From Methylacidimicrobium sp. B4 (lineage in GTDB: Bacteria; Verrucomicrobiota; Verrucomicrobiia; Methylacidiphilales; Methylacidiphilaceae), in contig NZ_CP066203.1 in NCBI RefSeq assembly GCF_017310545.1, positions 186,001 through 250,000 on the forward strand: a stretch of 64,000 bases of DNA, in the 5' to 3' direction. Numbering within the stretch: the first letter of the stretch is position 1; each line of letters begins with the position of its first letter. A program made the translations under genes and the position numbers. The notes under the pieces were generated by a model. It ran no database searches and had not been told where the DNA came from. It was given only the letters and a program-made list of their open reading frames with translations. Shown piece after piece: positions 36,311 through 38,833 of this stretch.

Positions 36311-36868
36311 ATGACGAACGCGAGCGATATCAGCAAAGGCCAGGCGATCCGCCATCATGGTGCCGTCTGCCTCGTCTTGGAGACCCAACACAGAACGCCG
36401 GGGAATCTGCGCGCCTTCGTCCAGATGACACTGCGCAACCTGAAGACAGGCAGGTCTTCGGTGGAACGCTTCAGCTCATCGGACAAGGTTGAGCTGGTCA
36501 GCGTGACTCGGAAGAAGTGCGAATTCAGCTACCGCGAAGGCAAGGACTATGTCTTCATGGATCCGGACAGCTATGAGAGCATCCCGGTTCCGGAAGAGCT
36601 GGTCGGCAAGGCGAAGGACTATCTCACCGAAAACCAGATCGTCGATCTTCTGTTCACCGACGAGATGGTGGCCGCAGTCGAGCTGCCGCCTACCGTCACC
36701 TTGAAGGTCGTCAGCTCTCCGGAAGGGATCCGTGGCGATTCGGCAACAAACGTGATGAAGATTGCCGAGGTCGAGACGGGCTTGAACGTCCAGGTGCCGC
36801 TCTTCATCAAGGAGGGAGAGAAGATCAAGGTGAGTACGGCGGAGGGCAAGTATTTGAGCCGTGCATAG
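36311..36868 (+). CDS. efp: Elongation factor P with non-canonical tip loop
   Basis: EF-P relieves ribosome stalling at consecutive prolines. The 185-residue protein has all three domains, including the C-terminal signature [23 protein letters not shown]. The exposed domain-I loop reads [10 protein letters not shown] where E. coli has KPGKGQAF: the modified Lys34 position is Asn32 here. Two residues on is Arg34, which might substitute. So the usual lysylation, hydroxylation or rhamnosylation route may not apply. Cotranscribed with kdsD by spacing. Confidence 0.95.
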
Positions 36869-36939: not shown

Positions 36940-37767
36940 ATGCCGGAATGGGTCAAGATCCTCCAGGCTGCCCAGATCGGCATGGGGTGGACGGATGAGG
37001 GGCTGGCGGAACGTTCCGACACGTCTCTGCGAAAGCTGCAGGAGTTGAAGGCGGGGCATCTCGAGCCCGCTGCGCTTCGCTCCGTGGCGCGCGTCTTGCA
37101 GTTGGGGGCTGACGCGCTGCTCGCCCTGGCACGGGAAGGCAGCCGGACCCCAGTCTTTCCGACGCCGAGAACCCTCCGAAGCATCGAGACCGAATCGGGA
37201 CGAGGGTATCTGCTCTGGGATTCGCCGTCGCGGCTCGCATCCCTGCTCGATATCGGGGAAACGAGCCGGCCAGCAGTACATGTCCTGGAAAGCGAATTCC
37301 TGGTGCCGCGCTATCTCTTCTTCACCGAATGGCATCGCCCTGCAGACCCCGCTTGGATCCGTTTCCTGGAGGAGCGGGGCGCTCTGCCTCTTCGGACGGA
37401 GGAGGAAGCCGCGGACGCGACCTTCTCTCTAGGAACCCTTCAGGTGGACCGTCGCCTCGTGGCCGCCCAAGGAGGAGCTGGCCACCTCCTTTACGTCGTC
37501 CGCGGCATGGAGGTGCCGCTTGCTTTCATTGGCCGGTTGCTGCTGCCTCCGACTCGCGCAGCCCTGGAAGAGAATGCCCGTATTTACGCGACATGGCTGG
37601 ATGAGGTCCGTTCGCATCTTTTTACGCTGAGCGACGAGACCCTTCTCTGTCCTTCGAGCGGGCCCATGACCTCGGTCGGCTTTGAAAAAGCCCATAACCC
37701 GTTCTTTCCCGAATTCGAGCATTTTTCGCCCTTTGCGAGCTTAACCGAGGAAAATCGCAATCCGTGA
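36940..37767 (+). CDS. HTH plus degenerate metallo-beta-lactamase-fold protein
   Basis: A 275-residue protein. Residues about 8-65 look like a Cro/XRE-type helix-turn-helix (MGWTDEGLAERSDTSLRKLQ, ALRSVARVLQLGADALLALA). The rest follows the MBL (glyoxalase II/YcbL) order of strands and ends in PSSGPMTSVGFEKAHNPFF, resembling PGHGPxTTIGxExxxNPF of that family. The metal ligands appear lost: TEWHRPAD stands where THxHxDH should be, IGRLL for GDtLF, and PSSGP for PGHGP. It may be a non-catalytic sensor-regulator. Family assignment is inference. Confidence 0.6.
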   Translation: MPEWVKILQAAQIGMGWTDEGLAERSDTSLRKLQELKAGHLEPAALRSVARVLQLGADALLALAREGSRTPVFPTPRTLRSIETESGRGYLLWDSPSRLASLLDIGETSRPAVHVLESEFLVPRYLFFTEWHRPADPAWIRFLEERGALPLRTEEEAADATFSLGTLQVDRRLVAAQGGAGHLLYVVRGMEVPLAFIGRLLLPPTRAALEENARIYATWLDEVRSHLFTLSDETLLCPSSGPMTSVGFEKAHNPFFPEFEHFSPFASLTEENRNP

Positions 37768-37861
37768 ACGCCAGTCGTTCTTCATCGCGCCGGGGCGTTG
37801 CCCGTCGGCTCTCGGCGCAGCGCTCCAGATGCGGCCTCGGAACAAAGAGGAATGGTTATCG

Positions 37862-38833
37862 ATGAACGGAGAGAAATCCCATCCGCTTCTTGTCTTCTCG
37901 GGGAGCGCCAACCGGCCGCTGGCGGAACGAATCGTCGAGGCGATCGGCATCCCGTTGGGCGCGGCTACGATCTCCTCATTTCCCGACGGGGAGACCTTCG
38001 TGAAGATCGACGAGAACATCCGGGGACGCGACGTCTTCCTCGTTCAACCGACCTGCCCGCCGAGCAATCACAACATCATGGAGCTGCTGATCATGATCGA
38101 TGCCGCCCGGCGGGCCAGCGCGGCCCGGGTCACAGCGGTGATCCCGTTTTATGGCTATGCCCGGCAGGACCGTAAGGATCGTCCGCGCGTGGCGATTACC
38201 GCCAAGCTGGTTGCCAATCTCCTGGTCGCTGCCGGCGTCAACCGCGTGCTGACGGTCGATCTCCACGCCCAGCAGATTCAAGGCTTCTTCGACATTCCGG
38301 TCGATCATCTTTACGCTGCACCCGTGCTCTATCGGTACTTGGCGACCAAAGATCTCTCCAACCTGGTCGTCGTCTCGCCGGATGTCGGAGGGATCAAGCT
38401 GGCCTCGAGCTACGCGCAGTTGCTGGGGGCCGGGCTTGCGCTGGTGGTGAAGCGCCGCGTCGATGCGGAGCATACCGAAGCTCAATTCGTGGTGGGGGAA
38501 GTCGATGGCCGGGATGTTCTGATCGTGGACGACCTGACGGAAACAGCCGGGACGGTGACCTCGGCGGCGCGGATCCTTAAGGATCGAGGAGCACGGCGGA
38601 TCTTCGCCGGCATCTCCCATGCCGTGCTCAATCCCTTGGGGATCAAGCGGCTGCAAGAATCCTGCCTGGAGGAGCTTATCACGACGAATACGGTGCCTCT
38701 CCATCCGGTGGACGGAGTGAAGGTAACGGTCCTCGATGTCGCTCCCCTGTTGGGAGAGGCGATCAAGCGGATTCATAACGGCCAATCGGTTTCTTCCCTC
38801 TTCCGCGTGGACGGAAAGATGGTTCTCCTATGA
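37862..38833 (+). CDS. prs: Ribose-phosphate pyrophosphokinase
   Basis: Makes PRPP from ribose 5-phosphate and ATP for nucleotide, His, Trp and NAD synthesis. The 323-residue class I enzyme shows FSGSANRPLAERI, SFPDGETFVKI, the flexible-loop YGYARQDRKDRPR, the metal-binding VDLHAQQIQGFFDIP and the PRPP loop VDDLTETAGTV. ATG 37862 (MNGEKSHP) fits family length; ATG 37829 is in frame but has no RBS. The stop overlaps the next gene's start (ATGA). Confidence 0.96.
   Translation: MNGEKSHPLLVFSGSANRPLAERIVEAIGIPLGAATISSFPDGETFVKIDENIRGRDVFLVQPTCPPSNHNIMELLIMIDAARRASAARVTAVIPFYGYARQDRKDRPRVAITAKLVANLLVAAGVNRVLTVDLHAQQIQGFFDIPVDHLYAAPVLYRYLATKDLSNLVVVSPDVGGIKLASSYAQLLGAGLALVVKRRVDAEHTEAQFVVGEVDGRDVLIVDDLTETAGTVTSAARILKDRGARRIFAGISHAVLNPLGIKRLQESCLEELITTNTVPLHPVDGVKVTVLDVAPLLGEAIKRIHNGQSVSSLFRVDGKMVLL

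Follow-up and report, generated by a model that had tools for sequence, protein, structure and literature searches.

What does a protein of metallo-β-lactamase (MBL) fold do once its metal ligands are gone, and for what purpose does it carry a helix-turn-helix (HTH) domain? This question is raised by a gene in the window, the whole stretch of 64,000 nucleotides from Methylacidimicrobium sp. B4 that was analysed. Its product had been read from the letters alone as an HTH fused to a glyoxalase II-type MBL fold without metal ligands, perhaps a pseudoenzyme sensor. The gene lies between two conserved neighbours.

36311..36868, + strand: efp (elongation factor P), conserved upstream neighbour
36940..37767, + strand: HTH-MBL pseudoenzyme gene, 275 aa plus stop, ATG start (ORF call, orthologues, dN/dS)
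37829..38833, + strand: prs (ribose-phosphate pyrophosphokinase), conserved downstream neighbour

The order kpsF-efp-X-prs, in which X is the pseudoenzyme gene, was kept at all ligand-less loci where the contig is long enough; at two loci the contig covers X-prs alone. A promoter and terminator scan at the gene gave nothing above chance. A chance ORF was excluded by nine full-length orthologues and a dN/dS well below 1.

Domain architecture and fold

Pfam and NCBIfam searches with the protein were uninformative. Pfam Lactamase_B (PF00753) matches 53 of 53 active relatives and neither the pseudoenzyme nor any of its 8 full-length orthologues. The following domains were assigned.

36940..37137, + strand: Cro/C1-like five-helix HTH domain, residues 1-66, without the acidic LED...D motif that is invariant in the active family
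37174..37707, + strand: MBL-fold domain of the YcbL/glyoxalase II type, residues 79-256 (sequence and structure matches)

An AF2 model of the pseudoenzyme was obtained with a pLDDT of 90.1 and a pTM of 0.87. Its input alignment included 57 active homologues, which may have biased the model towards the family fold. In the structure comparison of this model with VIA-align, YcbL (2xf4) came top with a Z of 17.4 and an rmsd of 2.6 over 170 residues, and several other MBL proteins were within 1 Z unit of it. Because of the 57 intact relatives behind the model, evidence drawn from sequence only matters for the fold. The single pseudoenzyme sequence matched YcbL in the PDB at E 1.7e-4, and a profile built from the ligand-less orthologues only matched BLEG-1 at E 1.3e-8 and YcbL at E 1.3e-7. 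The glyoxalase II-type fold of the original prediction was thus recovered both in these matches and in the overlay on YcbL that it had suggested. The model of an intact paralogue in the same genome (L016) has a pLDDT of 97.2, with Z 27.2 for BLEG-1 and Z 26.7 for YcbL.

The N-terminal HTH had also been predicted correctly. Five helices are predicted by AF2 (residues 3-14, 19-25, 30-37, 43-52 and 57-66), and a profile of the family N-terminus matched the 434 repressor at E 1.7e-4, the cyanase HTH at E 9e-4 and also 434 Cro. The product of 36940-37767 is a Cro/C1-like HTH fused to an MBL fold of the YcbL/glyoxalase II type. Its 275 aa hold the HTH and one MBL domain, without a beta-CASP domain.

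Loss of the metal site

The positions equivalent to the seven ligands H,H,D,H,H,D,H are occupied by E,H,P,A,G,R,S in the alignments, which agrees with the proposal that the HxHxDH, GDxLF and PGHGP motifs are all replaced.

37327..37344, + strand: vacant HxHxDH site, residues 130-135, EWHRPA (alignments)
37471..37473, + strand: vacant fourth His, GH[SA] position, residue 178 = Gly (alignments)
37534..37536, + strand: vacant bridging Asp, GD[SA]LF position, residue 199 = Arg (alignments)
37657..37659, + strand: vacant last His, PGHGP position, residue 240 = Ser (alignments)

The single His left at a ligand position is replaced by R, S or N in the orthologues or falls in a gap, and no ligand position is retained across them. 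With the ligands lost, the dinuclear metal mechanism by which MBL enzymes usually hydrolyse their substrates would be excluded, as judged from the aligned residues. Forty-five alignment columns are conserved in at least 90% of the active members. The metal-site columns among them are gone in the ligand-less clade, while G, A and L of the HTH core and T, G, E, N, P and F of the C-terminus are retained.

HHDHHDH is kept in about 70 of about 70 class members outside the ligand-less clade. Among about 40 further order members, a substitution was found in a single member and the others keep the ligands. Parallel ligand losses elsewhere were ruled out on this sample. The one exception, L168 (G298:C82:62300-64300), is an active-family member with HxDxDH instead of HxHxDH, one ligand being altered.

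Distribution and origin

Ten ligand-less orthologues were found, including the product of 36940-37767 and one partial sequence, and they come from two sister genera, g1 and g2. The ligand-less form occurs in 6 of 7 g1 genomes (the partial one at a contig end) and in 4 of 5 genomes of g2, which is probably Methylacidiphilum. Close orthologues are carried by M. tartarophylax, M. cyclopophantes, Verrucomicrobia bacterium LP2A and two Methylacidiphilaceae MAGs. HTH-MBL matches are present in all 13 family genomes. In the same genome (G000, 2.37 Mb), the intact paralogue L016 (G000:C1:2293051) has the same HTH-MBL design with HHDHHDH. An active copy accompanies the pseudoenzyme in every genome except the incomplete G003, and it is in two pieces in G004.

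Across the phylum, matches were obtained in 103 of the 289 genomes sampled. Full-length matches were confined to the class, and those outside it covered mostly the C-terminal MBL part. When plasmids were searched for the fusion beyond the phylum, the best matches likewise spanned mainly the MBL part. A fusion unique to this protein was rejected, the design being family-wide. The HTH-MBL fusion is widespread in Verrucomicrobiae and ancestral, and the ligand-less copies are one clade. The original prediction had named homologues with an intact HxHxDH site as evidence against it. The close orthologues lack the site, as it implied, whereas the same-genome paralogue and the wider family keep it; therefore, only the ligand loss is special and the design is not.

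In the tree, all nine full-length ligand-less rows group together as one clade (support 100/96), and the eleven active family rows as another. A tree that holds both sets together was not rejected (p-AU 0.29). A duplication inside the family is possible, and long branches limit the tree.

In G005 (L105), a short ORF between efp and prs joins the gene start to the conserved tail after an internal deletion. G007 has a broken remnant of the gene with stops. In G012, efp and prs are present with nothing recognisable between them. Since it has decayed in two of the 13 family genomes and is absent from a third, the pseudoenzyme gene is dispensable.

Selection and conserved parts

The pseudoenzyme gene is under purifying selection. 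Its dN/dS is 0.16-0.30 in g1 and 0.13-0.25 in g2, and that of the active copy is 0.05-0.29. The bootstrap intervals for four pseudoenzyme pairs span 0.11-0.43, with upper limits of 0.32-0.43. Between the genera, the identity of the pseudoenzyme is 0.40 in the HTH core, 0.17 in the MBL body and 0.66 in the C-terminal core, and the corresponding values of the active paralogue are 0.50, 0.62 and 0.76. The pseudoenzyme thus retains 80% (HTH), 27% (MBL body) and 87% (C-terminal core) of the between-genera identity of the active paralogue. The ratio of ratios for HTH over MBL, pseudoenzyme against active, is 3.1 (95% 1.9-5.1). The result indicated that constraint has shifted, the HTH core and the C-terminal segment being conserved while the MBL body drifts. 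The segment has two parts.

37624..37707, + strand: conserved C-terminal core, LSDETLLCPSSGPMTSVGFEKAHNPFF region, residues 229-256, about 64-66% identical between genera
37708..37764, + strand: added C-terminal tail, PE[FY]...S.F..LTE, residues 257-275, in this form in the ligand-less clade only

The core is common to YcbL-type proteins in general and may have a purely structural role. The tail is conserved in the ligand-less clade and missing from the active paralogues of the family.

At the N-terminus, the acidic motif of the active family has largely disappeared from the ligand-less clade: E5 and D10 are lost in 9 of 9 and D6 in 5 of 9. Four active order members (L165, L166, L167 and L169) lack the central HTH helices wholly or partly and keep the ED...D..K motif and all ligands. 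Therefore, it is the acidic motif that accompanies the metal site, and this site can be kept without the HTH core. The pseudoenzyme is the reverse, with most of the acidic motif lost and the HTH core retained, so the importance of the HTH core to the pseudoenzyme is well supported.

Alternative explanations

One alternative, in line with the original prediction, is a ligand-sensing transcription regulator, in which the HTH would bind DNA and the vacant MBL pocket a switching metabolite. The profile matches to the 434 repressor and Cro fit it, as does a HTH core that is among the best-conserved parts of the pseudoenzyme. However, the mean net charge of the HTH is 0.4 in the pseudoenzyme and 0.5 in the active family, against +3.9 in 25 HTH_3 domains of the same clade, a control set that includes near-copies, so the p values of this comparison are rough. 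After the start of helix 2, the pseudoenzyme has Asp where the control XRE domains have Gln. Within the HTH of the active family, conservation is highest in helix 1 and the acidic residues ahead of it and lowest in the putative recognition helix (2.40 bits). The residues of the former pocket also differ among the orthologues, unlike a ligand site that is kept. Such a regulator is unlikely. DNA binding by the HTH appears doubtful, because the positive charge of XRE domains is missing and some active relatives do without the central helices. Of the proposed pseudoenzyme sensor, the pseudoenzyme part stands on the HTH, the MBL fold and the loss of the site; the sensor part is weakened by the near-zero charge, the variable recognition helix and those four active relatives.

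Slow decay of a redundant duplicate under relaxed selection, without a present function, would account for the remnants in G005 and G007, the empty interval in G012, the fast-evolving MBL body and the long branches. It agrees poorly with an ORF that has stayed intact in nine full-length orthologues from both genera, with dN/dS of 0.13-0.30 bounded as above, and with the conserved tail and HTH, and it is quite improbable. A new catalytic or metal site in place of the old one is very improbable. Some polar residues are indeed invariant in the ligand-less clade (D19, D94, D104, E154, E233, C237, E249, H252, E258 and E270), but only one His and one Cys are among them, H252 is the His of HNPFF and common in the active family too, and the positions of the former site differ between the genera. 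A new metal site was rejected, as the clade has no cluster of invariant His/Cys/Asp.

Proposed function

We favour, with about even confidence, a retained non-catalytic pseudoenzyme paralogue that acts by binding, perhaps to the active HTH-MBL paralogue. An HTH-MBL hydrolase of Verrucomicrobiae, of the YcbL/glyoxalase II type, appears to have been duplicated, as seen from the intact L016 in this genome and the single ligand-less clade. In both sister genera one copy is flanked by efp and prs, a position that it would already have had in their common ancestor. This copy has lost its metal ligands and most of the accompanying acidic motif, and purifying selection on it rests mainly on the HTH core and on the C-terminal segment with its added tail. 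Considering the lost metal site and the purifying selection on these parts, the protein probably works by binding something instead of by catalysis, and the HTH core and C-terminal segment with its tail would most likely be the binding surfaces. The active paralogue is the favoured partner because the conserved parts are those common to both paralogues, although the measurements would fit another partner equally well; a hetero-oligomer might tune the active enzyme or compete with it. More tentatively, the pseudoenzyme may have turned regulator in these acidophilic methanotrophs, either controlling the active paralogue through hetero-oligomers or sensing its substrate and acting on gene expression.

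Comparison with known proteins

L016 and the Verrucomicrobiae family resemble the pseudoenzyme in length, in the order of HTH and MBL and in the C-terminal GP.T.V..E..HNPFF, and share ancestry with it. They differ in the intact seven ligands and acidic LED...D motif, and the family paralogues end without the extra tail. YcbL, BLEG-1 and glyoxalase II (PDB 2xf4, 7ev5 and 1qh3) have the same MBL fold and are among the closest solved structures, but they are chains of 209-260 aa without an HTH. Their metal sites are intact. In cyanase, too, a Cro/C1-like HTH is joined to an enzyme domain, and the HTH profile matched it; the catalytic domain of cyanase, however, is unrelated and active. To our knowledge, the N-terminal HTH of cyanase is not used for DNA binding.

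MBL-fold pseudoenzymes have already been described in eukaryotic RNA processing (INTS9 and CPSF100). INTS9, a metal-less MBL-fold protein paired with active INTS11, has been termed a pseudoenzyme (PMC7980224). INTS9 and CPSF100 are MBL-fold relatives of an active enzyme that are unable to coordinate the catalytic metal. As in that class, the ligands of the present pseudoenzyme are lost while its same-genome paralogue keeps them. In contrast to it, the two are eukaryotic RNA-processing subunits with a beta-CASP domain, a known active partner and no HTH. In the open-access papers searched, no bacterial MBL-fold pseudoenzyme with an HTH was found, nor any work on HTH-MBL proteins. Intact and metal-less paralogues of the same outline in one genome offer a test of what remains after a metallohydrolase loses its metal. 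The pair, from a lineage of acid-loving methane-oxidising bacteria, can also be used to test the purpose of the HTH in an uncharacterised Verrucomicrobiae family.

At 22 of 59 loci (L034-L092; e.g. L069:939-1823), the active HTH-MBL gene has a beta-hydroxyacid dehydrogenase gene (PF03446, PF14833) as a same-strand neighbour. With this neighbour, a role of the active family in the handling of reactive aldehydes or thioesters would fit. Separately, a 146-aa protein (L012:2493-2930) for which Pfam gave no match at E 1e-4 is encoded close to the active HTH-MBL gene at four loci.
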